64,000 nt of DNA from Haliclystus octoradiatus (lineage: Eukaryota; Cnidaria; Staurozoa; Stauromedusae; Haliclystidae). A program made the position numbers and the translations under genes. The DNA is taken from assembly GCA_916610825.1 (NCBI GenBank), contig OU744453.1:12729826-12793825 (forward strand), in the 5' to 3' direction. Position 1 is the stretch's first letter; every line of letters starts with the position of its first letter. Under the pieces are notes generated by a model. That model saw nothing but the letters and a program-made list of their open reading frames with translations. It had not been told where the DNA came from and did no database searches. This document shows, in pieces, positions 975 to 49,632 of the stretch.

Positions 975-1365
975 CCAATGAGCATGAAGTATAATACGGT
1001 ATAAGATTCATCACAACCGAATACGTTGAGCTAAGATGATTAATGACTTTTTTAATGACTTTTCTGAATCAACTTGGATCTGCTTGGAATAATAAATGAA
1101 ACTTCAAGTAATCGTGTTATCGATTCATCAAACCCAAATTCTATACTCAGCCTTCTCCCAGAGGCAAAAGGTCAGGAATCAGAGGTCATCACAAATAAAA
1201 CAATTGAATGGTATAATTTCGTATATACTTTGATTTTGAATTACAATTCGATTATAAGTAGATAGTGCTGTAATGGCTATAAAATTCTTAAATCCTTACA
1301 TATTTTTATATATATAGATTCAACTTAGCAAACCAAAACATTATACATTATAAATACTTTAAGCA

Positions 1366-1919
1366 TAATTTAATGTTGCTTTTATCTTTTCTCTCTTCTC
1401 TATCTGCTTGACCCACCTTACGCTCTCTGAATAATTTCCTATAAATCACATATAATTAAGCATATATTAGATAACACTGATGGAGCATTGATACTCTCCC
1501 TGTAGGGCAGTCATACTTACATTAGGCGGTGCACCACTATCCATTCTAGAATTTGATACGAAGAAATATCAGATCATAAATATGGCTCAATTTGAACATT
1601 GACGTAATCTAGTTTGCAACTTACCTTCTTTCTTTAGCGATGCACTTCGCTTTAACATTGGAATTAAATATTGTCTTGCATACAATTCCCTTTCTTCTAT
1701 TAATTTCTGAATGCTAATAAACAAAAAATTAAATTGAGAAAAAACATAAACATACATGATGTCTTTGAAATTTCTCTTTAAAAAACAGAAAGTCAATCAT
1801 CTCACCATAATTCTTCCGGGAACAGTCAAACTTGAATTTCTTGATAAAAAGTCGCAACAACAAGTTGGATATTCCAGGTAAGACATGTAGAACAAAGTAC
1901 GCAAATAAAAATTCGTCAT
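1366..1919 (-). CDS. Possible chain of small minus-strand exons, product unknown
   Basis: Read on the minus strand, four segments join with matching phase. 1919-1806 starts with ATG after CTTAG and is followed by GTGAGA. 1706-1625 lies between ATTCAG and GTAAGT and reads KLIEERELYARQYLIPMLKR onward. 1545-1521 lies between TTCTAG and GTAAGT. 1438-1417 follows TTATAG and either splices at GTGGGT or reads on to a stop near 1366. The 82-bp exon is the most convincing because it has good sites at both ends and a charged, protein-like sequence. The two microexons (25 and 22 bp) could be chance. I do not recognise the protein. The strand matches UQCC6 upstream, but the sequence does not resemble the expected UQCC6 C-terminus. 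Confidence 0.3.
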
Positions 1920-5385: not shown

Positions 5386-5690
5386 CCTGCGAAACTACAT
5401 GAACAGTTCATGAACTTGAAATGGCACAATAATTCAATAATTTTTGTCACATCTCAGTTCATGAACTGGGTTCATAAATAAGTTCATAAACTGGGTTCAT
5501 AATAAGTTCATGAACTATCAAGAGAGATCATTAATAATACTACAGCATGTTATAATTGTGTTGTTTGACATCCTTGGATAGATATAAATTAAAAATCTGA
5601 AGCTTCTTGGAAAGGCAAAGCAGTTGAAAAAACATGCCACCGCACATTATTTTCAAGGTATAAAAATTCTTTAATCTGCATCATATAAAA
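5386..5690. repeat. TTCATGAAC element, inverted copy 2
   Basis: This is the reverse complement of the element at 480-974: TACCCCTGCGAAA, then a shorter run of AGTTCATGAAC palindromes, then ACAGCATGTTATAATTG and GAAGCTTCTTGG. Homology stops sharply at the GCAGGGGTA word in both copies, which marks one true end of the element. Confidence 0.75.
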
Positions 5691-6139
5691 TAGTTAATTA
5701 CACATCAATCTTTCTAAAAGTTCTAATCAGACCATTGGCAACATGTTCTGAATTTTATTATGCAGAATGTCCTTAGTGCTATTTTCATTGTGCAGGGGAA
5801 TATATCTTTCGACTCAGTAAATAATACATGGACTGGTACACACATATGACAGTGCTCCTTCTCCTTTGAGGAAATTTTACATCAAAATAATTATTCAATA
5901 TTTTCTTGTTCACCAACACTTCATTCAGCTCATTAACTTTCTATACAGTTTGTGAACTTGATAGCTCATGGACTGTATCTATGAACTCTAGAATGAACAA
6001 CTAATTCCATGCACAAATATGAAAATGGCCTTGAGATATTTACAAATTCATCAGTTATTCACAAAAACTTTATTCCATGAAAACGCAAATATTCCATGAA
6101 CTCAGATATTACAGAAGTAGTAATAAAGTATATTAAATT

Positions 6140-6430
6140 CATGGGTAAATTTATTGACTATTCATGAAAAGTTCATGAATTTATCAATGAACTGGCAAGT
6201 TCATGAACTCTCACTGAATAATTAATTTGATCAACTACTAACAGACAATTCATGAACCAGTTTATGAACGTTGGAAAATGTTCATGAATTGTCAATCAAA
6301 AATTGAGTTCATGACCTTTTTATGAAACGTTCATGAACCAGTTGATGAACTGTGTATTCATGAACTTAGATTGACAATCTTTTCACGGACAGTTTATGAA
6401 CAGTTCATGAACAATACGAAGTTCACAAAG
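6140..6430. repeat. Degenerate TTCATGAAC-rich cluster
   Basis: More than ten TTCATGAA or GTTCATGAAC words occur in irregular spacing. The flanking unique half seen in copies 1 and 2 is not evident, so this may be an old or partial member of the family. It lies just downstream of the UQCC6 exon on the transcribed strand. Confidence 0.6.
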
Positions 6431-6575: not shown

Positions 6576-6683
6576 CATGTTTGGTTTGTAAATCTGATGA
6601 ATCATGAATCCACCACCAAGCATAGATGCAATGCAACTTGTAGAAAACATTATATAACGTAGAAAAGAAGTTCCAGCTGGCAT
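6576..6683 (-). CDS. UQCC6: UQCC6 (C12orf73/BRAWNIN), first coding exon
   Basis: UQCC6 is a roughly 70-residue inner-membrane microprotein required for assembly of respiratory complex III. This exon gives 36 residues opening MPAG, then a hydrophobic helix and HQIYKPNM. That fits the family pattern of MPAG start, Y..MF, small residues in the helix, then H..Y.P. It ends at codon phase 0 before a good donor (GTATGTG at 6575). The family's conserved second part (a PEIPP...GEL type segment) should lie further down the minus strand. I could not find it between here and the left edge, so the gene is partial in this annotation. The ATG is 49 nt after the UQCC5 stop on the same strand, with no poly(A) signal between, which suggests a bicistronic or operon transcript. 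Confidence 0.72.
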
Positions 6684-6732
6684 AATCAAACTTATGATCT
6701 CTATTGCATGATGGTTAATACTGTCTAGTCAA

Positions 6733-6815
6733 TCATGTAACGCTGACGGTTTCTTTTGCTTTGGTTGCTTTCTCGGTCAACTTTCTTTCAGCTTCTTTCC
6801 TTAAGTATGTATCAT
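6733..6815 (-). CDS. UQCC5: UQCC5 (SMIM4), exon 2, C-terminal part
   Basis: This follows a strong acceptor (ATTTTCAG). Two bases complete a Tyr codon split with exon 1, then 26 codons rich in Lys and Glu (DTYLRKEAERKL onward) run to TGA. The join reads KETFYDTYLRKEAER, which matches the human SMIM4 pattern QETFYDVYRRKASER almost position by position and fixes both the frame and the 16.3-kb intron. The tail is probably the soluble part facing one side of the inner mitochondrial membrane. The exon sits immediately upstream of UQCC6 on the same strand. Confidence 0.88.
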
Positions 6816-7084
6816 CTGAAAATATTAAAAAGAAAACAAATATCACAGATATATTATAGAAATAGCAAAATGATGGATTTTTTAGCTGTTGAGAATATGC
6901 TGTGGTTGGCATAATAGGGAGGTACGCTTGAATTTTTTCTTTAAATGAATTCCAGTGTAAATAAAAGATTAGCAGTAAAAAAAAAGTATGTGAAATTAAA
7001 TTTTAACTGTCATTGAATTAACAGAGATACTCAGCTTTTACTTTATAAAAATCAACTTATGTTGTCATGATGACGCAAATGATT

Positions 7085-7155
7085 AATTTTTGCTGTTGTT
7101 TATATGTGACGTCATTTCGCAAGAAGTTCCTCTCCGATAAGAGCAAGATGGCTGA
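7085..7155. promoter_or_regulatory. Possible promoter with CRE and YY1-like motifs
   Basis: GTGACGTCAT (a full cAMP-response-element palindrome) is followed about 55 bp later by GCAAGATGGCTGAC, which contains the AAGATGGC core typical of YY1 sites near start points. It lies inside the UQCC5 intron and could drive the small plus-strand candidate at 7361-7671. This is motif evidence only. Confidence 0.35.
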
Positions 7156-7360
7156 CTTTCAGTTTTGAGTCGAAATGATCGTGCTCAACTAAGAAAGAGA
7201 AAAACCTTGAAACATAATTGTTTGTCCCTGGATAAACAGCAAAATTATTAAACCTGTTTTTACAAGCCGCAAGTTGATCGACGGACTCAAGAAAACCGAA
7301 GCCAAGCCATCTATTACAAATCTTATACGAATGTACAAATTCGAAACCTAAATTAAAGAT

Positions 7361-7671
7361 ATGCTATTTCTGTGTGTTCCAGATGATTCAATTAGATGTG
7401 ACGTTTGGTGGTTTAAAGTGTATAACCCGGATATTCAGACCTTTACGGGAAAGGCGCGCGATCACGCTCGCGCCTTCAAGCGCCTTGTTTTGGTTTTTGA
7501 AGAGCGTTTAATAGCGCGCCTCACTGATAATTTAGGTACATATTTTTAAGGCTTTTAGAATTTTAATTTCCAAATTAAATTTATTTTATATTTTGCTTCA
7601 AAGAACATTTTATTTTAGCTTTTTTCTTCGGATGTTACGTTGGAAGAAAGGCTCTGCCAAAACAACAGTGA
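7361..7671 (+). CDS. Candidate small two-exon gene, product unknown
   Basis: A frame open from ATG at 7361 reaches a possible donor at 7536 (TTTAG then GTACAT). It continues in phase after the acceptor TATTTTAG (7611-7618) to TGA at 7669, giving about 75 residues. AATAAA follows at 7732-7737, about 60 nt past the stop. A second reading is that TTCTGTGTGTTCCAG (ending 7380) is itself an acceptor, which would make the upstream ATG wrong. The segment also holds the hairpin AAGGCGCG/CGCGCCTT. No family is recognised. The arrangement of promoter, frame, intron and signal is suggestive but each part is weak. Confidence 0.25.
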
Positions 7672-8310
7672 TAACCATTTGGCAATAAGGCGCGACATTG
7701 TTGAACTGAATATGTTGTGTTGAAGGTGTTGAATAAATTTATTTGAATGAATTTTCTTTGTGTATTGTTCTCTAGTATGACCCCTTATTGTTTTACACCT
7801 TAATAGCGGCCGATATCAATCAGCTGTTAAGTTAGCCGTCACGTCAAAAGGTAAACAACGTCTATTCTGAAATAGATATGCATTAAGTTACGACATTACA
7901 CAGTATTGACATTAAAATAGACATTTAACCCGAAAGTAAATAGTAAACATTACAATAACATCTTTAGAATAATAGAAAATATAACCATATACCACGCATG
8001 CTATTGAAAGAAAAATATTGACAAATTATTTATTCAAATTATTCATTTCAGGATGGCGTATGTCATTCTGAAAATTAATTATAACTTTTAATTGATTTTC
8101 AGACATAAGGCGTCTAGTTAATGATAGTAGAAATTTAATTAGCCGTCTGTCACATGTGTGGTGTTTGTCTGAGACGATTGCGTATTGAATTATTAGGCAT
8201 ATCCTGTCGCGCCGTTTTAGCCATATATAAATCAGAATAATTCTGTATAAATTGAGCCTTAAATAAACTGGCATTAACAGAATTAACGTTGATAGCACAA
8301 TCACTTTAAA

Positions 8311-11261
8311 ATGTTTCGCCCTGATGTTGGATCTTTTGTCCAACTTGCTACTTTTCTCAAATGGGGCGTATCAGAAACAATAGGCCATTTCCATGAAGTT
8401 AAAGATGGTAAAGATAGTGTAACAAAAGTATGGTGTAAGCTATGCGCAAAGTACGTCGATGAAATAAAAAGAGACAGTCGATTGAAAGGGAAAGCAAAAG
8501 ATGAATCTCTAAAATATGTTGAGGGGACCACCTTTATTACTAAACACAACGTTCTACGTCACCTTTCCTCTGTGGTAAGATTTGCAAATTTATTATTGAT
8601 ATTGATTTCATAAGGCTCTTAATTTCTCTAAATGTTGAAGTTCTATATTTGATGTAGAATGAATTGAGAACATGTATATACAATTCTTAGAGATATGTAA
8701 ATGAGTCAAAGAAAACAAATACTATTTATTATAATTCTGATTTTCACTCCATTATGGTATTCATCATGTGGTTTAAATAACTTTGTTTTACAAAATTAAA
8801 TAATTACATTTCTTAAGTTAAAACTGGGTAATGTTAATACAATAAAAAACAAATGATATTTCTATTGTCAAGCTGCTGCTGTATGTATATATGGCCATAG
8901 GCTGCTTCAAGGTTTTAATATGAAACTTGTTGATTTACATAATTTTTTCCCAAATGTGTTGCAGGCAAATATAATGCCAATATGATAAATTAGAAAAGCG
9001 ATATAAGCACCTAATAAATAGATTAACAAAGACTGGCAAGAAATTTTAAATATTATGAGTTGATTAATTTTAAGAAATATATTTAATTTGCTATTGGTTA
9101 ATTTTCAGGCCCACAGAATCGCTTTAGAATCACAAAGACTTCTTCATCCTGAAACAGTAGCTGCAACATCATCAGCATCTCTCCCATCATATGCATCCTG
9201 TTCGACTATAACTCGGCAACCTAGAATTGATACTTCTATCCATAATCAAGCAACGGAAGCATATCGTAAACTGTTAAAGACTGCATACCTGTTAGCAATT
9301 CATTCTCAGCCCTTATCTTTATTTAAACTACTTGTTGGTGTGCAGAAGGCAAATGGTGTAAAGTTAACATAAGGTTATGATAACGGGAATAGAGCAAGAG
9401 AATTTATACAACACATTGCTCAAGCTATCCAAAGAAAGATCGCAATTATTGTCAACAAGTCCACTGCATTTAGTGTCTTATTTGATGGTTCCCAAGCAAG
9501 GAAGACCGGCAGCGAGTAAGAGTTGGTTATGGTCCGTGTAATAAAAGACTGTGGTCCAACTTACTTAACTGTCTGTCTCAAAAATATTGATGATTATGGT
9601 GATGCTACTGCTGTAAATTTGAGGAAGTCCTTAGACGACACATTTTTAGCTATTTTGTCTTTAGAAAAAGTTACATATGAAACGAAAATGATAAGTTCTA
9701 CTGCTGACGGAGCTGCTGTAAATTTTGGTGAACACAATGGCATTCAAACCAAATTGAAAGAAAAGCGCCCTTGGCTTCTGACAATTCACTGCACTTGTCA
9801 CAGGGTTGAATTGGCATTGAAGTATAGTTTGCTCGAAGAACCAAAATTTGTTAACCTGAAAGATTTGTTAATATTAATATTCGATACAATGAAAAGATCT
9901 GGAAAATTTAATAGGCAGTTTAAAGACACTGCCAATGCACTAGGAGTGCAAGTATATAAATTCCCAAGAGTACAAGGGACGCGATTTGTAGAACATCTAA
10001 GAAATGGTATAAGTGTTTTATTACACAACTGGATACCTTTCCTTATAGCAATAGAAAATGCGCTTGCCACTGACGACACAACTGCTGCAAGTTCAACACT
10101 AAAAGGTATAATGAAAAAAATGAAGGATGAGAGGACTCTGGCTGCTGCTTCAGCATTAAAGTGCATTCTGGAATGTATTGCTCCGCTGTCGTTATTGTTT
10201 CAAAAAGATGACCTTGTGTCTATGAGGTAACTCCAGCAGTTGATCTAGCAGTAGATAAATTGAAAGAGCTAGATGATGATGAATTCTGCCCTTTATCAGA
10301 AGTAGAAATCTCTCATCAAGATGGCATGATTTCTGCTACTTTGTGCAAAAAGGGCCATATGAAGCGTGACAAGAAGAACAGAGAATATATAACATTAAGC
10401 ATTGGTAGAATGACACACAGTGGGCAACTATCTGTTGGTAGAAATGTAATTAAAAATAATATCTATAAAATTGAAAAATGTTTAAATGAAAAATTTGATA
10501 CATTTAACAATGATGTGTATACCCATATGAGCTGGTTGAATCCACAAAACTGGAGTGAACATATTGAGAATGATCTGAGAAGCATGGATATTATTAGTTC
10601 GAAATTTAGTGTGATATTACAATTGTATGGGTTTGATAAAAATAAAATTAAAAAAGAATGGAAAGACCTAAAACTAACAGTGAAACATTATTACCAATCT
10701 ACAATAAATGGCACTGCAGATGAAAAAAAAGAGCTTTGGAAGAAAATTTTGAATTATAGGAGAAAGCAATTCCCAAATGTATGCCTCCTTGTAGAATTAG
10801 TAATGGTTATTGGTATTAGCAACAGCTCCGTTGAGTCTTGTTTCAGCTACCTGTCAGCCATTTTAACAGATAGACGCCTGTCCTTGGACCATAAAACAAT
10901 GTCCAATCTATTGGTTATTCGGGCAAACCATTTGGCATGGACTGATCCAGAAAGAACCAAAATCATTGAATCAGCACTTTCAACATTCAAAGCAAAAAGG
11001 CGCATAACCGCTGTAAATCAGTCAGGTAACTCAACATATGAAGGATTCTGTTCTTTATCTGAGCCTGGACCATCAGCTGCAAAGCAACCAAAACCACCAG
11101 GACCAGTCATAATTGATAACGAAGATGATAGCAACAGTGATAGTTCTGATTTCTCCTCTGCCAAAGACAGCTCCGAAGAAGATGACCTGTGTATGATTCG
11201 GGAACAATTTATCAGTAATGCATCACTTCCAAGTAGTGACTCTGATTCAGACATGAACTGA
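8311..11261 (+). pseudogene. BED-finger hAT transposase, broken
   Basis: hAT transposases cut and paste DNA elements with 8-bp target duplications. Exon 1 (8311-8574) encodes a BED-like finger: C-x2-C in VWCKLCAKY and H-x4-H in KHNVLRH. It ends at GTAAGA and rejoins at 9109 after ATTTTCAG. Exon 2 has the first catalytic Asp (LFDGS, codon 9484), the second (STADGAAVN, codon 9706), the CTCH motif typical of the family, and the C-terminal dimerisation domain with the catalytic Glu (SSVESCFSYL, codon 10833), then an acidic Ser-rich tail. Three lesions break it: TAA at 9370, TAA at 9517 and a frameshift near 10220-10228. The catalytic triad is intact, so inactivation looks recent, or a domesticated or fragmented product is still possible. 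Terminal inverted repeats were not resolved. Confidence 0.88.
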
Positions 11262-11593
11262 ATGCTGTTAAACATGGTGTTGGTAAAAAATTTATAATAT
11301 TTTTCTGTAACCTATTCATCAGTAATCTTCGATTTTACATTTTTAAGTTTTTATGAAAGTTTTTTAAATATTATTCCATTTACAATAGCTTTAATTATAT
11401 ATTTTCTACTTTTGTTTTGTATATAGATAGCTCACGGAATTGCTTGTTATTGTATACTAAGATACAGTATTTTGTTATATCGCTCTGATGGTTTATCTGT
11501 TCTTGAAAAAAAATTTAAATCACTCCCCTACTGCTCTCCTGAACTGAATGAGGAGAGCGATTTTTCACTCGCCTTCATTTTGCTCCTGTAAAG
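11262..11593. other. 3' flank of the hAT remnant
   Basis: AT-rich DNA with no gene. It contains a short perfect hairpin, GCTCTCCT and AGGAGAGC around a 10-nt loop, near 11532-11557. It probably belongs to the hAT element or the adjoining foldback repeat, but no element boundary can be fixed. Confidence 0.4.
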
Positions 11594-12464
11594 GTCTGGA
11601 TATTGGGGGATTGCTTCTTTAAGTAGAGAAAAATTTTCTATTCGTACATGATCTTCTTGTGTTTTTACTTTGCGCAATCATTTCTCCTTCAAAAATGCAG
11701 TCAAAGTGACGATTTTGGGTTAATTTTGTGTCTCACTCTTTTTCCTCGGACAGGAACCCACTTATTTTTCACAAGAGGGTTTTCACCTGAAAAAACGCTA
11801 AACTTTTTACTTATTTGTCTCTAAATAAAAAACCACTAAACCAAATGACAATCTGCTTTCGGAATGAAAATTTCAACGTTCAGCTGAAGATTTAGAGCTA
11901 TATTTGATCAATATCCAGGTAAAGAGATATAAGCCTCTAAAGTCAAAAGTTTTTAGTTTTGGATTTTTCTCACTCAAGTGTAGTCGGCATAGTTGATGCG
12001 TATTACAATAGTCACACACCTTTAATAACCAGCAGCGATAACCTGCTTAGACGAAGTCGTAAAGAGGTGCTAATCGCGCGAGTACTTGAATGAGAAAAAA
12101 TCCAAAACTAAAAACTTTGACTTTAGAGGCTTATATCTCTTTACCTGGATCTTGAATATTGATCAAATATAGCTCTAAATCTTCAGCTGAACGTTGAAAA
12201 TTTCATTCCAAAAGCAGATTGTCATTAGGTTTAGAGGTTTTTTATTTAGAGACAAATAAGTAAAAAGTTTAGCGTTTTTTCAGGTGTAAACCCTCTTGTG
12301 AAAAATAAGTGGGCTCCTGTTCGAGGAAAAAGAGTGAGACACAAAATCGTAACTTTGATTGCATTTTTGAAGGGGAAACGTTTGCGCAAAGTAAAAATAC
12401 AAGAAAATCATGCACTGATAGAAAATTTTCTCTATCTGAAGCAGCAATCTCCCACTATCCGGGA
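11594..12464. repeat. Long foldback inverted repeat (about 390-bp arms)
   Basis: The left arm (about 11594-11980) and right arm (about 12083-12464) are reverse complements with scattered differences, separated by a loop of about 100 bp. Matching landmarks include TATCTCTTTACCTGGAT against ATCCAGGTAAAGAGATA, and CACTTATTTTTCACAAGAGG against CCTCTTGTGAAAAATAAGTG. A transcript across it would fold into a long double-stranded RNA. No target duplication was found, and the frame open across the right arm (12298-12591) is probably fortuitous. It is likely a foldback transposon relic. Confidence 0.85.
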
Positions 12465-14982
12465 TATACACTTTAAAGCTGCAAGAAGAATTGAGATGGG
12501 ACATGACACAAAGACAATGGTTAATAGGCTCACGTGTCTGGTGCTGTTGCCTATTGAAATTACCGATATAACGGGAAGTGTCCTCCTATGATCTGTTCCT
12601 AAAGGCCCCATCGAATTTCAAGCCCATGATTTAATATAGCGATGTGATGTGCCAAGTAAGGTGACCAAAAAATATGTAATATTCATAAATAAAAAATGAA
12701 AATAAATACTGCATGGTGGACACCTTTCTGTGCCGCAACAATATTTGAGGACCAGGGGCTGGATCCCAAACAGGATATTTTTGACAAGAACACCTGAATC
12801 AGTCAAGTCTACTGAATTTATATGTAAATATATCAGTAAATGGCTTTTACTAAATGTTTATGATCGCAATTACATTTTTATTTAATTTTTAAATTTCAGT
12901 CAAAGAGAAGTAAAAAAAGAAACAGTTGCCATTAAAAAATTATTAACAAATTCTGTCAGCATCTAGTCGACAAAGGGGAATAACTTTTTCTTATTCCAGA
13001 CGTCCTTCATTTACTCAAAATTTTCAGAAATCATCTAACAAGAAGAAAAATAATATACAGTTTGTCTAAATGACATCATAGTGAACACAGGACAGAAAAA
13101 TTAAAGTACAGCTACCGTACTCATATTTTATGCCAAAAGACTGATACAGCAATATGACTTTAATTGAGAAAGAATAGCCTGTGTCAAGACTAAAACATTT
13201 CTAAAGGAGCGTTTTAGTTTGGACGCAGGCTAAGAAAGAATTGGTAGACAATGGTTTGACCTAATGACATGAAGCTCAACCTTAATCTGTTTATGATTTA
13301 GAAATTAGCAATATTGCACCACATTTTAATGACAAATGGCTCAACCCTGGACATTTTAAAAAATGAAAATAAACATGGTGGCAAAATTGTTATGCCGAAA
13401 AACTGGCGCAGCAATAAGATTTTTTTTAGTAGACAAAGAATAGCTGGGCAAACACCAACGGTCATTAACAAGTGCATTACTTGCAGACATGGTTGGACAA
13501 TGGTTGGACCAAATAACAATTTAGGACAACCTCAACTGCTTTCAATTTGTTTAATAAAGAAACACATAAGACCACTGTTCAACTTTTAAATGATTTTATA
13601 GAGGTGGTGCATGATTTAGAAATTAGCAATGAATAAAATGCAACAATTAAACCTGCTGGAATTATTCATGCTGCGTCAAGCGCGTTACAACTACAATAAT
13701 GTCTTCTTGTTGAAAGAAACTACGGTACAAATTTGTTTTAAGGAGCACATTCGGCCAAGATGCTTTGGAAAATTTGTTTACACAAGTCAGGTTAAATAAT
13801 CTAACTCCAAAAACATAAACTGCAATAAAAACAACAGGCGTGTACCTTGTTGACAAAGATGAAACTGCTACATCTCTTTTGGACTACCCAAAGATAAATG
13901 AAAACAATACACCTGCAGTCATTTGAAGCTTAATCTTGTCCTACCAAGTTATCAAGAATAGAAAACTATTGAAATTAAAAGTCTACAGCCCCTTGTAGGA
14001 TATTATGTTTCTCAGTTTCTGAAAAGACACAGATTCTGAGAAGTGTGTTGCTACAATCAAATTGAAGTAAAGTAAAGAAAAGAAAAATAATCACGGAAAC
14101 GTGAGAGTGCAAGCTTGGAATCTTAGTTACATCATCAAAAACTGCTATTGAATTGATTATCAAAGCAGATTCATTATTTGCAGAAAACATGAAATCATTG
14201 GGCATTCTACATCTTTCCTTATGTAACATTTTACTATGCAATACAACCAAAAGCTTTTAATCACGTCTCGACAAATCAATAGCCAGAGCAGTAAGAGTTG
14301 TGCTTGAATGGAGCAAAAGCCATTTAACAGGGGATTGCCTAGCAGAGATATCAATACAACATGGTACAACAAAGCAAGTTATTTTGGAATTTGTGGTTAT
14401 GCTATGTTACAATGTCAGATGCAAAAAGTCCCCACAGTACATTTCGAAGAAGTTCAGCTATGTAAGCGGGAAAACAAGAGCTGCTACTAGAAAATCCTTT
14501 GTTGAGCTTAGTTACAAATGCGCTGCTGGCAAAGACTCTGTGGTACGTACTGCTGGGAAACTGCAAAATGAAATAAGTAAAAATCAAAAAGAAATATATA
14601 ACAAAACTACATATTCATTGCGAAGATTCATAAAACCATCAAACTTGAAGAACTAATTAAATAAGTTATGAAACAGAACGATGTTTAACTTATATTTATC
14701 TATAAATCTACTACTCTTTTTTTTAATCAAGCGAACTCCAGAGATTTTAAGTTTTTAAATCTTATGTAAGTATATACCATTTTTAAATTCCTAGTTACTT
14801 CTAATTTTAATCCTTTAATTAATTGCTATTTTACCATACTCGTCATTCTGTAAAACATATTGTGCTTTAACGGTAACTATTTTTGTATTTAATATGCTAA
14901 ACAGTAGAATACGAGTGAAAATAAATAAAGAAGATGATGACGATGAACCGATCATTGTTTAATTAATTTCTTAAACAACAGA
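12465..14982. other. Unassigned repeat-like DNA
   Basis: No recognised gene. The phrase GATTTAGAAATTAGCAAT occurs twice (near 13297 and 13613), suggesting decayed repeats. The plus-strand frame 14300-14656 (118 codons, Lys- and Ser-rich) is open but matches no family I know; AATAAA follows at about 14921. It may be a remnant of another element, and its position directly before the LINE fragment fits that. Confidence 0.4.
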
Positions 14983-15336
14983 TTCCGCAAATCAAAGTTC
15001 AAGTGTCATATTGCTGTTTTCATTGATCTTACAAAAGCATTTGATACAGTATCCCATCCTCTACATTTACAATTGTGTAACTATGGTGTACAAGATAGTG
15101 AAATTAGATGGAGGAAAAATTATCTGCAAAATCATCAACAAATTCTTTCTTTTGACGGTGTTCCGTCATCCAGTCAAACGGTAAATTTTGGAGTTCCTCA
15201 GGGAAAGGGAAGCATTTTAGGTCCACTTTTATTTCAAATTTCTATCAATGATCTGACAAAGTGCACTTATCTTAATTTAAGTCTGTCTTTAACACCACGC
15301 GCGCGCAAAGTCATTTGTGCCATTCGCGTTTTGTAA
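14983..15336 (+). pseudogene. LINE reverse transcriptase fragment
   Basis: One frame shows non-LTR reverse transcriptase motifs in order: AVFIDLTKAFDTV (palm motif A with its Asp), a YGV...W...YL region, and GVPQG...SILGPLLFQISINDL (motif B region). Two extra residues split GVPQG from SILG, and the frame degenerates before the expected catalytic (F/Y)ADD motif. This is therefore a dead 5'- and 3'-truncated copy. It ends about 120 bp before the DIRS gag remnant. Confidence 0.88.
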
Positions 15337-15457
15337 GTGAGCATGTGTTACATTTCCATGGATAATTTCAACATTTTTCTATTTTTTGGATTGGAATTTC
15401 TGCGGGTTTAATGCTAAATATGATTATTATTTGTTATTTGTTTATTAGGTTTACATT

Positions 15458-16480
15458 ATGGATCCGGGAGATCTGCGTTTTGAAGCTTCACTGGATGATA
15501 ATTCAGATAAAGAGAAACCCCAGGCATTCCTAATATCTCAGAGCAGATGCCAGCCGTATCAGAGAATACAAATTTGGTTGCTGTAGAATCAACAAACCTT
15601 ACCGTAACACAAGCAAAAGGACCTCATGCTGTTGACGATGAGACATTAAGATTGTTTGGTGGACCAGAGTTTGAACAAGATGCTAACAACACAGAAATGT
15701 TTCTAGAGTCAGTTGATCAATCTCTACTCCCTGCAGATAATTTTGGTCCATCCATTCTGACCAAGTAGCAACATTGGTCAATAAGAAATTTCTTGCCGAT
15801 CTTGGCATTGATAAACGCAAAGAGTTACAAGAAAAGTACAAGGTGCCTAAGAACTGCAACGAATTATGTGTATCACGAGTGAATGATTCTGTATGGAGTA
15901 AATTGCAGAAACAATGCAAACAGAGGGACCTGTGTGTGGTAGTATTGTAAGAGTAAATCGTCAAGGTTTCAGCTGTTTTGGCAATTACGAACCATAGACC
16001 CCAAAAGCATTGCCATTAAATTATTTGACTCCTTGGCATTATTAGGTCATGTCAATCTCGATTTATCGTACAAACATCGAGATTCAATGAAATCTTTCCT
16101 AAGTGATGAGTTGCAGGCAGGTTGTAATAAGTCAAACATTCCTAAGAAGTTGTTATTTGGCAATGATTTGACAAAATTATTTACTCAATCTAAACTTATT
16201 CCTTGCCTCTAACACATCCAGCAGGTCTTCACGTTTTACTCCATATCATTCAGCAACATCTATTTCTCCAGGTTGTCCATTTTATCCCACAGGGGGAGTG
16301 GAGCGGCATCAGCCTCTTTCCCTCCCTATCAGTACCCTTACCAGAACCAATCTCGTCGGGGTCTAATATCACCAGAGCTCCAATAAGCGGCTCAAAACTC
16401 ATTCGTCCAAAAATCAACTATGCTAAATTCACAGGTAACTACTACACACCATACCTATTTGTAAACCTTCAGTTAAAACA
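15458..16480 (+). pseudogene. DIRS-type retrotransposon gag remnant
   Basis: DIRS elements are retrotransposons that integrate with a tyrosine recombinase. The region starts MDPGDLRF, shifts frame near 15520, and is open at 15547-15768. It then shows family-typical phrases in shifted frames: KVPKNCNELCVSRVN with a following VWSKL, then SLALLGHVNLDLSYKHRD and KKLLFGNDLTKLF. A Pro/Tyr/Gln-rich tail follows. Several stops and shifts break it. It leads directly into the reverse transcriptase part, so order and strand fit one element. Confidence 0.75.
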
Positions 16481-16504
16481 TTTCTTAATTGCAAAAGTAA
16501 AACA

Positions 16505-16935
16505 ATTTACAGGTGACACCTGATTTAACTATTCTTCAATCTGTGAAGGGAGACATAATTGAATTTCCAAATTCAATGTCATTTAAAAGCAAAATTTCCC
16601 TTAATTTTATTCCTAAAGATCATGTTTCCTTTTCAGAAAGATAACAAAATTCGATTAATTCTAAACCTCAATTCTTTCAATCAACATTTAGAATAAATCC
16701 ATTTCAAGATGGACTCCATTCGCACAGCATTGCAATTGATTTCTTTAAATTGTTGGATAGCTTCAGTTGATTTGAAGGACTGTAGAAATTCGTAGTGATC
16801 AATAGAAAGTTTCAAAACTTTGCTTCCAATGAATATTGTACCATTACATGGTTTACCCAATGGGTATGTCATTTTGTCCACGTAGATTTACAAAACTTTT
16901 GGAGCCCCATTGTCATATTGGAGACAAAGATGCCA
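16505..16935 (+). pseudogene. DIRS-type reverse transcriptase remnant
   Basis: Translated phrases in order are DLTILQSVKGDIIEF, KIRLILNLNSFNQHLE, HFKMDSIRTALQLI with ASVDLKDC, then LHGLPNGYV and IYKTFGAPL. These follow the DIRS reverse transcriptase layout up to the VDLKDAY-type catalytic region. Stops and frame changes are frequent, and the later Asp-Asp motif is missing because unrelated DNA follows. Confidence 0.75.
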
Positions 16936-17444
16936 AAGTTGATTATAATGTGTGACATTGAATGCATTAATTTGTTAAACATTGACAAGTTGGATGATGG
17001 GAAAGATATGTGATTATTGTGAATTGGTGATTTAATTTTGTATCATATTTTAAGTACAATGTCATTGAAGTTGTTATGTAGGTCAATAAAAACGTGAAGC
17101 CGTCCTGAGTGCCCAAGAGGGACCAATTTCAGTTTTAAGGATTTTTGGATATAAGATGAAGTTCCGATGGATAGGGTGAGGGACGTAAGTGAGACGCTGC
17201 ACGAGATAAGGCAGGCGGAACAAGTCAACAATGTATTGAAGTCAATTGTCAGAAAAATGTAAGATGATAATTATATGGATATTCGTGTTTTATTGTTTAG
17301 AGAAATTTTTTGCTGGGTGGAATGTGTTGTATGATGTGTTGAAAGAATGTTTGTGTATTATAAGTTGATATCTTGTTATTGAGAGTAGAGAGTTACATTG
17401 TTTATTATGTTTATTGTGTTGCGATATATTGATATAATTATGTA
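16936..17444. other. Unrelated DNA inserted in the DIRS element
   Basis: This separates the RT and RNase H parts of the DIRS element. A plus-strand frame ending at 17262 reads DEVPMDRVRDVSETLHEI onward to a stop and has a coiled-coil-like, coding-looking composition. It may be the end of another retroelement frame, but I cannot name it. Confidence 0.35.
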
Positions 17445-17621
17445 CAGTCAAACCTGCTATAACTGCCACCTCTATAAAGCGGCAACCTGTTTATAGTGGT
17501 CACTCTTGCAATGTCTAAAATAGTATTTTCTATTGATTCAAACCTGTATAGAAAGGCCACCTGTCTATAATGGCCAATTTATCTACCTCTTGTAGCTGGC
17601 TGTTATATACATGTTTCACTG
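17445..17621. mobile_element. MITE family 1, copy A
   Basis: 177 bp bounded by TA dinucleotides. The ends are imperfect inverted repeats: CAGTCAAACCTG at the left and CAGTGAAACATG read inward from the right. The interior contains several CACCTGT/TATAGTGG words. Related copies lie at about 24978-25400 (interrupted), 49758-49933 and 50911-51093. The TA duplication and CAGT ends fit the Tc1/mariner/pogo group of non-autonomous elements. Confidence 0.85.
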
Positions 17622-17808
17622 TAGTATGTGATCTGGAGATCATGGGGGCGTGTAGGATTTAGTTATGATATTGTTTAAAGTAACACGTCTTCCTGGTCTC
17701 AGTTATATATTTGTGTGAAGTGTTGTCTTTAAGGATGGGTTGAATGTATGATGTTGTGTGGTGTTTTACGTAGTATGATGATGATGTTACGTGGTGTTTT
17801 TACCGCGC

Positions 17809-18757
17809 CTTGTGGCGACAACATCTACATTAGCAAAACTGGTCCACCTTCATAGAGGCTCTGTTTATCAACTGTCATATTAACCCTCATTCATCCTCTC
17901 CCTGTTGGTGGCCAGCTACAGTTATTATTACAACAATTACATCAAATATATATATGTACATATTGGTAACACCGACAACTTGAAATCGCAGCCTATAACT
18001 TTACTCGTTGTTATGGAGAAATATTGAAAAATCTTACAGTATCTGCAATCTACAACCAATTTGGGTGAGTGACATCCACTTACGAAAAATTACTATACAC
18101 TCATTCCATCAATCAAAACCAATATCCTGGCAGTCAACTACAAAAATTATCTAGGGCTTAACCCAAACCAACAATAAATCTTGTCAGTGATTGTTGGAAC
18201 ATCAAACAAGAAGCAGAAATAGGCCTAATCTACAATTCTTAAAAATAAATGCCAATCAAGTTATCAAATCAAAGATCAAAGCCTACACATTAAAACTATC
18301 AAATCTCAAAACCAAAGAAGAGAAGAACGATTACATAAGTAGAACTATTTAATTGAACACAACAAACAATTTTTATTTCTTTTATCATATAATTATATTT
18401 TATTCATTCATTCTTGTATATATTTTTTCATATCTTTTACTCACAGATGGGACTCCGTCTCCGTGGGGAAAAGCTATGTAGTGGATTGTTCTATGCCTAT
18501 TGTTTATCATAATGTATTTCCTTTGTTAACTGTAAAGCTTCTATTTGAATCACGTATACCTTGTAAATGCAAATCACTGTCTGTAATGTATAACCCTCTT
18601 CACGTCTGCCCTTCGTGGCGACAACATCTACATTAGCAAAACTGGTCCACCTTCATAGAGGCTCTGTTATCAACGGTTATATTAACCATCATTCATCCTC
18701 TCCTTGTTGGTGGCCAGCTACAGTTATTATTACAACAATTACATCAAATATATATAT
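17809..18757. repeat. Pair of about 148-bp direct repeats
   Basis: Copies at 17809-17956 and 18611-18757 share GTGGCGACAACATCTACATT, TTCATAGAGGCTCTGTT, CATTCATCCTCTCC and the closing ACATCAAATATATATAT, with few differences, around about 650 bp of unique DNA. This could be a small terminal-repeat retroelement or a repeat belonging to the DIRS element. No coding region and no flanking target duplication were seen. Confidence 0.8.
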
Positions 18758-18885
18758 CTCAGAATTGTCTATCTATGTGTGTGGTATTTAATAGTCATTG
18801 GCTAGTTCCACCCGCTACAAATCTTACAAGTTATTAGCTGCTTACTTTGCTATCTAACAATTCATTTCAATTATCACAGAAAAGC

Positions 18886-19740
18886 ATGTTAAAATTATGA
18901 TTGATAATGCAACTGCAGTCTTCATTATCATCAGCATGCTGGGAACCTGTCACAGTGACTCATGTAATTCAACTACACTGAAAATTTGGTGTATCTGTGA
19001 ATCAAGCAAGATGTGGTTAACGGCAGCACATATTCCTGGAAAACTGAATGTAATTGCAAATAGGGAATCTCAATCAAAAAACATTGATACTGAGTATATG
19101 CTCAGTTCTACCATGATGAAACATGTGTTGAAACATTTCCAGTTTCACCCACAATTGATTTATTTGCCTCCAGGCTAAATAAACAATACTCTGTCTATAT
19201 ATCATACAGACCTGACCCAGGGGCTATTTATATTGATTCCTTTACAATATCATGGCCCGATATACAATTTAACTGTTTTCCCCAGTTAGCTGCATTCTCA
19301 AAGTCAGACATGGGAAATCTAATCCAGAAAATAGTCTAAAATCAATGATATCTGGATCATTTGTAATAAATTTCAATTCAATGGCAAAAGGGCAAAATCT
19401 TCTGTTCAAGATAATGAAAATACGCTGAAAATACGTCTGAAAGATTCTCATGTCTGCAAAGTTCTCGGGAAAATTGTGCAGGACAATGCACAGGGAATTG
19501 ATGTTGTGTCAGATTGGCCAACTCAAGTTTGGTATCCGTTGTTGTTAGCAATTTAAGTTTGACTACCTGTAACCCTTCAACGATCAGCAAATCTACTAAC
19601 ACTACCAGCCCATCCAGAGATTCAACATCCGTTAAATCAAACGCTCAACATACTTATTTGTCATGAGTCAGGGAAAAATTACACAACAAAGACTTGAGCC
19701 CTTCCACAGAGGACATTATTCTCATTATTCTTATAGCCCC
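18886..19740 (+). pseudogene. DIRS-type RNase H and downstream remnant
   Basis: The reading KHVKIMIDNATAVF, then SSKMWLTAAHIPGKLNVIAN with a following RESQSK, matches the DIRS RNase H region (D-N-T-A-V, A-A-H-I-P-G-K-L-N motifs). Further on, IVQDNAQGIDVVSDWPTQVW and PLLLAI match the region after RNase H in shifted frames, followed by a NLLTLP motif. Frameshifts and stops are frequent. The tyrosine recombinase expected next was not found. Confidence 0.78.
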
Positions 19741-20799
19741 GTTAAATGACTTTATATATTTCGCCAGCATTGATAGGATTTAATCGGCATGGAAATATAT
19801 GATAAATGATGGCACATTTGATAATGGCATTTTGAATATCCATTTTGAATAATAATGGTTTCCTGTATACTGTACGAACATGTAGCCTATAATTGGAGGC
19901 AAAAAGCCCGCAAAATTCCACCACTATTAAATCACGGTTGAAGCCAGAATGTAGGCTAAACTGCATTGATTTCAGTGAGTTGAAAATATGTGAAATAGAT
20001 ATCTGCGATGAATTTATTTTAGCCGTGGTAATGACCCAATTATGCAGTAGGCCTAAATGGTTTTTAGATGCCGTAAAAGAGCTGCCAGGTTAAAATAAAA
20101 TTAAATAAAAATAGTAAAATCGAAATTAAAAAGTAATTTGGCCACTCTGCCAACATCAGTAGAATTACGTCGAGAACAATGATCAATGTTTTAAAAATCT
20201 TACCAATGTTGGCGAAATAAAAAGTCATTTAGCTACGTCTTAAGCAGCATTTTTTCTAACCTGGCATTTAAATAACCTTTCAAACACATTTTGTTTGTCT
20301 CATTTCTAACAATCCAATATGGGCTAGAAAATTTGGCAAAGCAAGGATATAGCTAATGGTGGGTTTATACAACAAATAACGGAACTATTTTTCAATGAAC
20401 ATTTTAGCATTATTGTGATTTGTTAGGCCTAGTTATAAATATATTTTTAGAATAATCCAATCATAATAACCTTCTTCTTTTGCAAAATTACAAAGAATCT
20501 TTTAGATTTGTAAAGTGTCACAATAATATTTTGTTGAAATCTACCGCAAAGTTATGGAGGATTAAATTGGCCATATCAACTCGATTTTGGTTAAACGTAT
20601 TTAAATTAACGGGACTATGTAAAGTAATACGTATTTAAAATTGTCACAACATAAAAATTGTAAATTTTTAAGCAATGTAACATATTATATTATACAAGTT
20701 AGGAAAAGTATAAGATTTTGACTGCTTCGCTCAATTCTTGTGTCGGTTTGAGATCACATAACTTCTTACGCGTCAATTCAACATAATCTGAGCGCGCGG

Positions 20800-20830
<31 letters not shown>

Positions 20831-23006
20831 TTATTCAGAACCTTTAAGTTAAAACGATAGAACTGCCATTCCCTGTATTATATATTCTATGGCCTGGACC
20901 ATGCACTAGCTGTTTTACGTACAGATCGTCTCCATATATGACAGGTGCTTGTCGGGTGTTGGAGTCTTTTTCAACAAAAAATGCTGGTTCAACTACTAAA
21001 TATCCTTGTATCTCATGCGTTTCTTGGTAAAATGAACTTGTTTCAAGAAGAAAAGGTATTCTAAAGGTACGGGCATTGCTGATTTGGACATTGGAAACTT
21101 TTCATTTCTCGCAAAAGATTTCAAATTTTAAATTGTCTGTTTTCCTATATTAAGACCACTTGTCATCCAGACTAATATTGTTCTGAGTTTGGAAAAAGTG
21201 AATGATCGAAAATAGGGTATATTCAACATTAAACATCACCGCTTATATATGTCCAAATTGAAAATCCTTTTCACCAGTCTTCCAGATTGGAAATGAATGC
21301 ATTGTGCGGCCAAGGTTGTATTTTTTCTCGGAAAATGAGCGGCTGAAAACTGAATTCTGATGTAATTTTGCGCGGGTGGATCACATATGTAGGCAAATTT
21401 TAGATATAGGATCTAAATAATCATGGAAATTATGTCAGTATCTTGTAAAATACGAATAAAATTATGAAATGTGCAACTGGAATTTCAGCCGCGAAAATGA
21501 TTGCGCGTCCAAGATCTTGCCCGCAAACAGCAAACTTTCCAATCTTAGAACTGTGCCACATGCCCCTGTACTTCACTTTACCTGCAGACGCTTCATATAG
21601 GGGACATGTAAAATTTAAATGAAAAAGTGAAGCGCTTATTTCAGAAAAATGAAATGATTAATCACAGACAAGCATCTGTGAAGTTTTTTGGATCTTGAAT
21701 TTGTGATGTATCTCATGAGACAGCTCCTTCAAGAGCAAAATATTTTTCAAACGTTTTTTCAAAGCTCCAAGCAGGCAGCAGCTACACTTAGCTTGTTTTG
21801 TAAGTGTTTCGTAGTAGTTGAAACCAAAGGTTTTAAGCTTTTGAGCTCAATCCTATGTTTAGTTAGAATATTAACATGCTTTTATTGGGTACTTAATTCG
21901 TTTTATCTTGAGATGTGCCTGATTAATAAAGTTTATAGACTACCGAATATTGTTACGCTGTTTAATACGCTGGCCTGAATACAACTTGGGTGTGTTTTCT
22001 CGTAAATCAAACCAAGGTTTTAAGTTTTTAAACTTGATTTTATGTTTATGTAATATATTAACATGCTTTCATTGCGTTTTTCAATCGTTTTATCTGGAAA
22101 TGTGCATTCTGAATGAAAATCGATTGATGTCGAACTGTAGGCCTGACACGTGCAACTTGGAAGAAAACACTGAATGCTTTAAGAAATAATAATTTGCTCA
22201 TATTGAATCACTCATCGCAGCAATTGTGAAGATCAACATACAAATTTAGACCTTGACTACGTGTATGAGTTGAAAAAAGCTTGTAAACTGGCATTAAACG
22301 GTAAATTATCAGCATGTAAATATTGCAATTTTCCGTGAATGTGGCTGACATGCTTTTCATTCTAGCGGAATAACATTGGACTTCATTATGGATATTTTTA
22401 TCATTATTTGATAGAATGGATTACAGATAATACTTTTCTATGAAGTTAATGATTTGAATACATCTACTTTACTCTATTGTTAGTAACATCAGTAATATTT
22501 CATTTGTGTGGTAACAACATTAATATATTATTTCGGCTCAATGTTGTTTATTCTTTACTTTGTAGAAGTTGTGCTTCATCCGTTTCTCAATTCATATCTG
22601 CAATATTGATTCGCTTCGATCAAAATTTCTACGATTTGGAAAGCTACAAAATTAAGTTTCGTTTTAAAATTTCAAATTGATTTTAACTGTGTGATGCGGA
22701 TAAAAACGTTAATGTCCTTCCGTCTTGACAGTTGTTTTCATTTACTGTTGGCCTTGGTGCACAGATACTTGACAGCAGGCGCTCGTGAGTATTAGGGTCA
22801 GAATTTTCTTAATGCATCACTTTATTCACATAAATTTTACAAGGCCCAGATGAGCGCAGCGAAATAGTGGGCGTTATGGAGCTAGGCTATTCCAATCTGG
22901 CCAGTCTTCATGATTTAGCCTCAGTTACCCGAGTCTGTGTTAAATTTTTTGTGTGTCATGTGCACTTTTAGCCTAAGTCTATGTTGCATTCTTGAATATA
23001 CTTTAA
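19741..23006. other. Intronic DNA without recognised genes
   Basis: Part of the UQCC5 intron. It contains a (CAT)n microsatellite at 20800-20830 and a weak direct duplication near 21815-21920 and 22010-22115 (shared AGGTTTTAAG, TTAACATGCTTT and GTTTTATCT words). No convincing coding exon or RNA gene was seen. Confidence 0.45.
20800..20830. repeat. (CAT)n microsatellite
   Basis: Ten uninterrupted CAT trinucleotides in the UQCC5 intron, directly after a GCGCGCGG stretch. Confidence 0.97.
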
Positions 23007-23161
23007 TCAAATACAGTGAAGCCTAAAAACTGAAATCAAAATAATATTCCCAATTAATGGCCTCATCGCACATTTGTTAGTAAAATCCAAACCGGAAAAC
23101 GCGATCATCTTGACTGTATTTAGCCCCGTGAGAATACTTGATCTGGCATTTGGATACTCAC

Positions 23162-23273
23162 AAAATGTTTCTTTTCCAATTCTGACTTTGATCATAAATA
23201 ATTCTATCCCAGCACCGATTCCGAAGAATAAAGGCAGGTATTTATAAGCTCCTACTTTAGCTAAGACGCCCAT
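23162..23273 (-). CDS. UQCC5: UQCC5 (SMIM4), exon 1
   Basis: UQCC5 is a single-pass microprotein of the inner mitochondrial membrane that acts early in complex III assembly, around cytochrome b. This exon encodes 37 residues: MGVLAKVGAYKYLP, then a hydrophobic membrane helix, then MIKVRIGKETF. The last block is the family hallmark (human MIKVRVGQETF). It stops one base into a codon at a canonical donor (GTGAGT from 23161). That base pairs in phase with exon 2 at 6815-6733, giving a 64-residue protein against about 70 in human. The ATG is the first in frame on this strand after the short upstream region. The promoter must lie above 23274, close to the long inverted repeat that begins near 23357. 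Confidence 0.9.
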
Positions 23274-41940: not shown

Positions 41941-44900
41941 AAATCAAAAGTATTGGACACCGTAGAAAAGTAACATATAGATACACCTTCTTATGTAGTT
42001 TTAATTATCAATTATAGTTATTTAAGTATAGTTTGTAATGAATCAAATTCATGTGTTATTGTTAGTGATGAAAATCGCATTGTGTGAAAATCGCGTTGTG
42101 TCCCGATAGGTTTAATGTCGAAAATGAATAACTTGATTAAAAAACCTTTTAAAATGAAAAGTATTGGACACTGTAGAAAGATACCATAAAGATACACCTT
42201 CTTATGTAGTTTTAACTATCAATTATAGTTATTTAAGTATAGTTTGTAATGAATCAAATTCATGTGTTATTGTTAGTGATGAGAATCGCGTTTTGCCCCG
42301 ACAGGTTTAATGTCGAAAATGAATAACTTGATTAAAAAACCCTTTAAAATGAAAAGTATTGGACACTGTAGAAAGGTAACATATAGATACACCTTCTTAT
42401 GTAGTTTTAACTATCAATTATAGTTATTTAAGTATAGTTTGTAATGAATCAAATTCATGTGTTATTGTTAGTGATGAAAATCGCGTTCTGCCCCGATAGG
42501 TTTAATGTCGAAAATGAATAACTTGATTAAAAAACCCTTTAAAATGAAAAGTATTGGACACTGTAGAAAGGTAACATATAGATACACCTTCTTAGATAGT
42601 TTTAACTATCAATTATAGTTATTTAAGTAGAGTTTGTAATGAATCAAATTCATGTGTTATTGTTAGTGATGAAAATCGCGTTATGTGAAAATCGCGTTGT
42701 GTCCCGATAGGTTTAATGTCGAAAATGAATAACTTGATTAAAAAACCCTTTAAAATGAAAAGTATTGGACACTGTAGAAAGGTAACATATAGATACACCT
42801 TCTTATGTAGTTTTAACTATCAATGATAGTTATTTAAGTATAGTTTGTAATGAATCAAATTCATGTGTTATTGTTAGTGATGAGAATCGCGTTGTGTCCC
42901 GATAGGTTTAATGTCGAAAATGAATAACTTGATTAAAAAACCCTTTAAAATTAAAAGTATTGGACACTGTAGAAAGGTAACATATAGATACACCTTCTTA
43001 TGTAGTTTTAACTATCAATTATAGTTATTTAAGTATAGTTTGTAATGAATCAAATTCATGTGTTATTTGTTAGTGATGAAAATCGCGTTGTGTGAAAATC
43101 GCGTTGTGTCCCGATAGGTTTAATGTCGAAAATGAATAACTTGATTAAAAAACCCTTTAAAATGAAAAGTATTAGACAGTGTAGAAACGTAACATATAGA
43201 TACACCTTCTTATGTAGTTTTAACTATCAATTATAGTTATTTAAGTATAGTTTGTAATGAATCAAATTCATGTGTTATTGTTAGTGATGAAAATCGCGTT
43301 GTGTGAAAATCGCGTTGTGTCCCGATAGGTTTAATGTCGAAAATGAATAACTTGATTAAAAAACCCTTTAAAATGAAAAGTATTAGACAGTGTAGAAACG
43401 TAACATATAGATACACCTTCTTATGTAGTTTTAACTATCAATTATAGTTATTTAAGTATAGTTTGTAATGAATCAAATTCATGTGTTATTGTTAGTGATG
43501 AAAATCGCGTTCTGCCCCGATAGGTTTAATGTCGAAAATGAATAACTTGATTAAAAAACCCTTTAAAATGAAAAGTATTGGACACTGTAGAAAGGTAACA
43601 TATAGATACACATTCGCATGAAGTAATAACTATCAATTATAGTTAGTTAAGTAGAGTTTGTAATGAATCAAATTCATGTGTTATTGTTAGTGATGCAAAT
43701 CGCGTTGTGTGAAAATCGCGTTGTGTCCCGATAGGTTTAATGTCGAAAATGAATAACTTGATTAAAAAACCTTTTAAAATGAAAAGTATTGGACACTGTA
43801 GAAACGTAATATATAGATATACCTTCTTATGTTGTTTTAATTATCAATTATAGTTATTTAAGTATAGTTTGTAACGAATCAAACTCATGTGTTATTGTTA
43901 GTGATGAAAATCGCGTTGTGTCCCGATAGGTTTAATGTCGAAAATGAATAACTTGATTAAAAAACCGTTTAAAATGAAAAATATTGGACACTGTAAAAAG
44001 ATACCATATAGATACACCTTTTTATGTAGTTTTAACTATCAATTATAGTTATTTAAGTATAGTTTGTAATGAATCAAATTCATGTGTTATTGTTAGTGAT
44101 GAAAATCGCGTTGTGTCCCGAAAGGTTTAATGTCGAAAATGAATAACTTGATTAAAAAACCCTTTAAAATGAAAAGTATTGGACACTGTAGAAAGGTAAC
44201 ATATAGATACACCTTCTTATGTAGTTTTAACTATCAATTATAGTTATTTAAGTATAGTTTGTAATGAATCAAATTCATGTGTTATTGTTAGTGATGAAAA
44301 TCGCGTTGTGTGAAAATCGCGTTGTGTCCCGATAGGTTTAATGTCGAAAATGAATAACTTGATTAAAAAACCCTTTAAAATGAAAAGTATTGGACACTGT
44401 AGAAAGGTAACATATAGATACACCTTCTTATGTAGTTTTAACTATCAATTATAGTTATTTAAGTATAGTTTGTAATGAATCAAATTCATGTGTTATTGTT
44501 AGTGATGAGAATCGCGTTTTGCCCCGACAGGTTTAATGTCGAAAATGAATAACTTGATTAAAAAACCCTTTAAAATGAAAAGTATTGGACACTGTAGAAA
44601 GGTAACATATAGATACACCTTCTTATGTAGTTTTAACTATCAATTATAGTTATTTAAGTATATTTTGTAATGAATCAAATTCATGTGTTATTGTTAGTGA
44701 TGAAAATCGCGTTGTGTGAAAATCGCGTTGTGTCCCGATAGGTTTAATGTCGAAAATGAATAACTTGATTAAAAAACCCTTTAAAATGAAAAGCATTAGA
44801 CAGTGTAGAAACGTAACATATAGATACACCTTCTTATGTAGTTTTAACTATCAATTATAGTTATTTAAGTACAGTTTGTAATGAATCAAATTCATGTGTT

Positions 44901-45640
44901 ATTGTTAGTGATGAAAATCGCGTTGTGTGAAAATCGCGTTGTGTCCCGATAGGTTTAATGTCGAAAATGAATAACTTGATTAAAAAACCCTTTAAAATGA
45001 AAAGTATTAGACAGTGTAGAAACGTAACATATAGATACACCTTCTTATGTAGTTTTAACTATCAATTATAGTTATTTAAGTATAGTTTGTAATGAATCAA
45101 ATTCATGTGTTATTGTTAGTGATGAAAATCGCGTTCTGCCCCGATAGGTTTAATGTCGAAAATGAATAACTTGATTAAAAAACCCTTTAAAATGAAAAGT
45201 ATTGGACACTGTAGAAAGGTAACATATAGATACACATTCGCATGAAGTAATAACTATCAATTATAGTTAGTTAAGTAGAGTTTGTAATGAATCAAATTCA
45301 TGTGTTATTGTTTGTGATGCAAATCGCGTTGTGTCCCGATAGGTTTAATGTCGAAAATGAATAACTTGATTAAAAAACCCTTTAAAATGAAAAGTAAATG
45401 ACGCTATAGAAACGTATCATTTAGATACACCTTCTTATGCAGTTTTAACTATCAATTATAGTTAGTTAAGTAGAGTTTGTAATGAATCAAATTCATGTGT
45501 TATTGTTAGTGATGCAAATCGCGTTGTGTGAAAATCGCGTTGTGTCCCGATATGTTTCATATCGAAAATGAATAGCTTCATGAAAAAACCGTTTAAAATT
45601 AAAAGTATACGGAATGTCGCGTTGTTACTTGATAAGTTTA
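41941..45640. repeat. Satellite array, about 18 units of 192-212 bp
   Basis: Each unit contains TTTAATGTCGAAAATGAATA, CTTGATTAAAAAACCC, TATAGATACACCTTCTTATG, ACTATCAATTATAGTTATTT and GAATCAAATTCATGTGTTAT. Two length classes alternate: the longer has a doubled AAATCGCGTTGTGTG word. Diagnostic variants (ATTAGACAGTGTAGAAACG in two successive units, then a unit with CACATTCGCATGAAGTAAT) occur at about 43170-43610 and again at about 44790-45235. This indicates a higher-order repeat of eight units, about 1.62 kb. The last unit (to about 45600) is degenerate. No gene lies in the array. Confidence 0.95.
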
Positions 45641-47925: not shown

Positions 47926-48171
47926 ATATTTTAGGTTTACGTTTCGTGTAAAATTGCGGTAATTATTTTACTTCCGCGGCAAATCGTGCCGGCTCCTTCT
48001 TGTATCTACGTCATTTCGTGCAAAATTGCGGCGACAATTTTTGCCGCGCGGCAAAATCTCGTAGATGCACGTGGAAAAACGTACATTTTGGGATTTATGT
48101 CGAAAATTTAACGTCGAAAAAATTTTTTCGACGTTAAACTTTTCGACGTTATAGCGTACAATCGAGTATTC

Positions 48172-49630: not shown

Positions 49631-49632
49631 AT

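Follow-up and report, generated by a model that had tools for sequence, protein, structure and literature searches.

A cnidarian UQCC5-UQCC6 gene pair in Haliclystus octoradiatus with the architecture of the bicistronic sloth1-sloth2 gene

In Drosophila, the microproteins Sloth1 and Sloth2 are made from one gene, sloth1-sloth2 (CG32736-CG42308), whose single bicistronic mRNA was detected by reverse transcription-polymerase chain reaction and whose two open reading frames (ORFs) lie 5 nt apart (Bosch et al. 2022, PMC9681215). The same report identifies human SMIM4 and C12orf73 as orthologous to sloth1 and sloth2, and describes a similar architecture in the choanoflagellate Salpingoeca urceolata, in Ciona intestinalis and in lamprey. 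In human cells, SMIM4 and C12ORF73 are reported to share a complex with UQCC1 and UQCC2, and each of them binds newly synthesized cytochrome b (PMC8719881). Here we describe the orthologous pair, UQCC5 (SMIM4) and UQCC6 (C12orf73, BRAWNIN), in the staurozoan cnidarian Haliclystus octoradiatus, whose genome note reports 262 Mb in 33 scaffolds and an 18.3-kb mitochondrion (PMC9975415). The pair lies on chromosome 8, in a window of 64,000 nt (OU744453.1, positions 12,729,826 to 12,793,825); all coordinates below are those of the window. A first-pass annotation of this DNA had pointed out the adjacency and knew of no description of such an arrangement, which is in fact described in the fly, choanoflagellate, sea squirt and lamprey cases. 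Its view that the two genes are unlinked in vertebrates holds for jawed vertebrates, where they are on different chromosomes, and fails for lamprey, where the pair is bicistronic-like (PMC9681215). Its description of the products as partners in early complex III assembly agrees with the work in human cells (PMC8719881).

We found that UQCC5 is encoded on the minus strand in two coding exons. Exon 1 (23162..23273) encodes MGVLAKVGAYKYLPLFFGIGAGIELFMIKVRIGKETF and ends at a GTGAGT donor, and exon 2 (6733..6815) encodes YDTYLRKEAERKLTEKATKAKETVSVT through the stop codon, with a tyrosine codon completed across the splice. The GT-AG intron between them (6816..23161) spans 16.3 kb and carries transposon pieces. 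At the junction, exon 1 ends with AAACATTTT, directly followed by GTGAGTAT, at 23162, while exon 2 opens with ATGATA, directly preceded by TATTTTCAG, at 6815; the phases agree, and the peptide KETFYDTYLRKEAER is formed solely by joining the two exons. The spliced product of 64 amino acids scores 66.4 bits against the Pfam family PF15114 (cut-off 27), covering profile positions 18-65 of 67, and has one hydrophobic stretch of 19 residues (mean 1.56). When the human protein was used as a tblastn query against the window alone, exon 1 was found with an E value of 4e-9, and exon 2 with one of 6.8, which is at chance level on its own. We accept exon 2 because of its splice phase and the Pfam match, as the tblastn result alone is not significant. 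Its acceptor is strong and pyrimidine-rich, scoring 9.9 on a simple home-made scale, a level attained by 0.85% of the minus-strand AGs in the window.

The first coding exon of UQCC6 (6576..6683, minus strand) encodes MPAGTSFLRYIMFSTSCIASMLGGGFMIHQIYKPNM and runs into a GTATGT donor. Its 36 amino acids score 47.3 bits against PF14990 (cut-off 27) over profile positions 1-36 of 46, and include one hydrophobic 19-residue stretch (mean 1.44); the corresponding tblastn search with the human protein gave an E value of 2.8e-4. The first ORF is accordingly a member of the UQCC5/SMIM4 family and the second a member of the UQCC6/C12orf73 family. The positions given in the first-pass annotation are right: with the last base of the UQCC5 stop codon at 6733 and the first base of the UQCC6 ATG at 6683, the spacer is 49 nt long (6684..6732, minus strand). 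The end of one gene and the start of the other lie within a single 240-nt segment that extends from the strong acceptor to the GTATGT donor. As had also been noted, no canonical poly(A) signal separates the two genes, since AATAAA and ATTAAA are both absent from the spacer; it holds one weak variant, AATAGA, at 6705. None of the five AGs in the spacer is a good acceptor, the best scoring 3.4 on the home-made scale, a level attained by 26% of the minus-strand AGs in the window. The spacer contains a two-codon ORF (ATG CAA TAG), preceded by ATG ATT GAC TAG, which overlaps the UQCC5 stop. The locus combines a common strand, the sloth1-sloth2 order and a short spacer free of canonical poly(A) signals. 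For UQCC5 and UQCC6 to be expressed as separate mRNAs, either an internal promoter or a highly unusual 3' end would be required.

The first-pass annotation had allowed that the functional copy of either gene might lie elsewhere. We searched the genome (261,861,806 bases in 33 contigs) with both, and found no other copy of either: the UQCC5 query recovered only its two window exons and the UQCC6 query only its one. By our own arithmetic, the chance that two unrelated single-copy genes fall on the same strand within 49 nt of each other in 262 Mb is of the order of 1e-7. Compared with each other, the UQCC5 and UQCC6 of this species show no convincing similarity (local score 17), which speaks neither for nor against the proposal that the two fly genes are paralogues. 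Sequence searches of the PDB with UQCC5 and UQCC6 gave no matches, Rfam gave 0 matches on the window at its gathering thresholds, and a viral-contig scan for UQCC5 found none.

The likeness to the fly gene extends to several features. In both animals, orthologous microproteins are encoded on the same strand in different frames, with UQCC5/SMIM4 first and UQCC6/C12orf73 second, and with a short spacer between them. In both, the first start codon, provisional in H. octoradiatus, has C at position -3 and the second has A: CGCTG-ATG-G (with G at +4) and TGATT-ATG-C in H. octoradiatus, ACACATG and CAAAATG in the fly, for which reporter assays support leaky scanning (PMC9681215). The two loci differ in that the spacer is 49 nt rather than 5 nt, that the H. 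octoradiatus UQCC5 is split by its 16.3-kb intron, and that extra short ORFs surround the spacer; moreover, the existence of a bicistronic mRNA is established for the fly, whereas we infer it here. The human proteins are orthologous too, with one hydrophobic segment each, and their genes, on chromosomes 3 and 12 (PMC9681215), are separate, unlike the pair described here. Ungapped alignments to the human sequences cover 44 residues of UQCC5 and 36 of UQCC6. Human UQCC5 has about 13 more N-terminal residues than the H. octoradiatus ORF, and human UQCC6 has a longer C-terminus. Hydra, Ciona and nematodes have spliced-leader operons, in which two genes are transcribed together, as would be the case here. 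In those operons the transcript is resolved into individual mRNAs where a leader is trans-spliced, and the H. octoradiatus spacer holds no good acceptor for such a step.

Taken together, these data lead us to propose, with a probability of about 0.8, that UQCC5-UQCC6 is the cnidarian orthologue of the bicistronic sloth1-sloth2 gene, expressed from one mRNA, with UQCC6 translated by leaky scanning, with or without reinitiation. Shared transcription, as the first-pass annotation had suggested, is well backed by the gene anatomy and by the fly precedent, the fly being where it is directly demonstrated. For H. octoradiatus itself, we infer the promoter, the transcription and the translation. One promoter upstream of UQCC5 exon 1, probably near 23.3-23.4 kb, would drive a minus-strand transcript, from which the 16.3-kb intron with its transposon insertions would be removed, creating an exon in which the end of UQCC5 is followed by the 49-nt spacer and then by the beginning of UQCC6. 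By analogy with the fly, ribosomes that slip past the UQCC5 start, with its C at -3, and past later AUGs on this one capped mRNA would initiate at UQCC6, with its A at -3; leaky scanning is most likely the route to UQCC6. Some ribosomes may in addition reinitiate following the 3- and 2-codon ORFs at the spacer. By extension from the human work, such co-expression would supply two inner-membrane partners that act jointly in early cytochrome b/complex III assembly.

Several observations weigh against this proposal. The UQCC5 start codon is provisional, and its start context is therefore uncertain: an upstream ORF (encoding MRMPMVSFSR and a stop) overlaps the ATG, and good acceptors lie upstream of it at 23348 and 23334. 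Together with the roughly 13 N-terminal residues by which the ORF is shorter than human UQCC5, these features mean that there may be an additional exon upstream of exon 1. A scanning ribosome would also meet four more AUGs between the UQCC5 and UQCC6 starts, namely one in frame within UQCC5 and three that open the short ORFs MIHT, MID (which overlaps the UQCC5 stop) and MQ. The AUG of MQ lies 218 nt past the UQCC5 start and has A at -3, the same base as UQCC6, and its stop lies 17 nt before the UQCC6 start. It is a real obstacle to leaky scanning, and some reinitiation may therefore be needed. The C-terminal exon of UQCC6 is not settled by the splice candidates or by PF14990 scores, as described below. 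Lastly, the sequence within the UQCC5 intron just upstream of the shared exon is comparatively rich in CpG: 7000-7435 contains 14 CpGs, with an observed/expected ratio (o/e) of 1.10, versus 0.48 for 6576-6999.

This CpG-rich stretch could be a promoter for UQCC6 alone, situated inside the UQCC5 intron at about 7.0-7.4 kb; the two mRNAs would then overlap but be separately driven, the bicistronic form being minor or absent. The candidate promoter (7000..7435) contains TGACGTCA at 7107-7114 and, on the minus strand, GCCATCTT at 7151-7144. We searched the genome with 6980-7520 and scored 40 of 82 candidates, and none of the 39 non-self matches begins before query base 452 (near position 7431 of the window), so that no second genomic copy of 7000-7430 is among the matches scored, a missing match being no proof of rarity. 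On the other hand, the window has two copies of TGACGTCA, and because at least two copies appeared in 9 of 100 shuffles, this motif is weak evidence. The GCCATCTT/AAGATGGC site can be read just as well from the opposite strand, and the CpG-rich block runs on into a repeat that starts at about 7431-7436 and is richer still (o/e 1.39 for 7436-8300). The block past 7436 belongs to a repeat that accompanies copies of a hAT-type transposon, described below, as the repeat end at about 7436-7520 is also found within 3 kb of the four other copies of that element, on other chromosomes. We regard a separately driven UQCC6 as unlikely. The combination of both modes, in which a promoter at 23.3 kb would produce the bicistronic mRNA and an internal promoter at 7.0-7.4 kb, CpG-rich and bearing a cAMP response element (CRE), would produce a UQCC6-only mRNA, seems to us quite improbable; if true, such a gene would stand midway between the ancestral, bicistronic arrangement and the separated genes of jawed vertebrates.

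The spacer bears on two other explanations, each of which we consider very improbable. In a spliced-leader operon, trans-splicing in the spacer would cut one pre-mRNA into two monocistronic mRNAs, and Hydra, also a cnidarian, is reported to trans-splice leaders to monocistronic as well as polycistronic transcripts (PMC7986045). The 49-nt spacer has no pyrimidine tract, good acceptor or canonical poly(A) signal, and we found no report of spliced leaders in Staurozoa in the literature searched. With a best score of 3.4 among the five spacer AGs, no good trans-splice acceptor was identified, and we rejected this explanation. The remaining idea, that UQCC5 and UQCC6 are independent neighbours and that UQCC5 is polyadenylated before UQCC6 begins, could appeal to the AATAGA variant at 6705. 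It must contend with the missing canonical signal, and it would require the UQCC6 promoter to sit in UQCC5 coding exon 2 or in its intron.

The 3' end of UQCC6 has more than one candidate. Without splicing at the GTATGT donor, the UQCC6 frame would encode 44 amino acids, with a stop codon that ends at 6549, and two canonical AATAAA signals 3' of the donor on the minus strand (6074..6155, first bases 6155 and 6074) would then be a candidate 3' end. With splicing, a possible downstream exon chain at 1348..1706 (minus strand), which we assembled by eye as KLIEERELYARQYLIPMLKRSASLKKE, EWIVVHRLM and KLFRERKVGQADREERKDKSNIKLCLKYL followed by a stop, would extend the protein to about 100 amino acids. 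The acceptor that would keep the frame (1706) is missing from the list of acceptors scoring at least 6, and a strong acceptor nearby, with its exon start at 1713, would splice UQCC6 into a different frame. No relative of the chain turned up elsewhere in the genome, in Pfam or in the PDB; it may be the UQCC6 C-terminus, part of another gene, or no exon at all. We also scored ten versions of UQCC6 with PF14990, comprising the unspliced read-through and nine chosen downstream continuations, eight of which were drawn from a longer candidate list and one of which, the KLIEERE continuation, was absent from that list. The profile does not discriminate between these C-termini, as the ten versions scored from 46.9 to 49.8 bits, and an unrelated candidate reached 49.8 bits, against 49.7 bits for the KLIEERE version. 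Downstream of the UQCC6 exon, a palindromic motif, TTCATGAA/GTTCATGAAC, recurs in many degenerate copies at 690-960, at 5456-5517 and on the minus strand at about 6040-6400.

The H. octoradiatus pair is a new, cnidarian example of an arrangement that was itself already known. It appears to be an addition to the described cases because the words Cnidaria, Nematostella and Hydra are absent from the main text of PMC9681215; we found no other account of a cnidarian UQCC5-UQCC6 pair in the literature searched at the level of titles and abstract openings. Together, the cnidarian and choanoflagellate cases fit the view set out in PMC9681215 that the two genes were linked early and were separated on the way to jawed vertebrates. 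The locus further indicates that the pair can persist while the UQCC5 intron extends over 16 kb and acquires transposons.

The window has 33 frames of 100 amino acids or more. Of the ten that were searched against Pfam, two gave hits, both to transposon domains in the UQCC5 intron. One belongs to the hAT-type transposon (Dimer_Tnp_hAT, plus strand), which begins at about 7436, reaches at least as far as 11261 (at least 3.8 kb) and has, among the matches scored, four other genomic copies at 96-97% protein identity. The other is a reverse-transcriptase fragment (RVT_1, 14947-15336, plus strand).

Elsewhere in the window, plus-strand ORFs at 48000-64000 resemble KMT2E/SETD5-type SET-domain regulators; five ORFs from this region had no Pfam hit, and the one tried on the PDB had no hit there. 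The CpG o/e falls from about 1.8 at 47.5-49 kb to between 0.25 and 0.78 in the 1-kb windows that start at 49 kb or later, a pattern like that of mosaic gene-body methylation. A satellite-like array occupies 42085-45608, with about 17 copies of a unit of roughly 195-211 bp, a GC content of 28% and a strong GC skew. Outside the window, the mitochondrial contig is 18,316 bases long and has cox1 in the orientation opposite to cox2-atp8-atp6-cox3-nad2-nad5 (gene names read from translations), only two tRNA calls, and polymerase-like ORFs at its ends.

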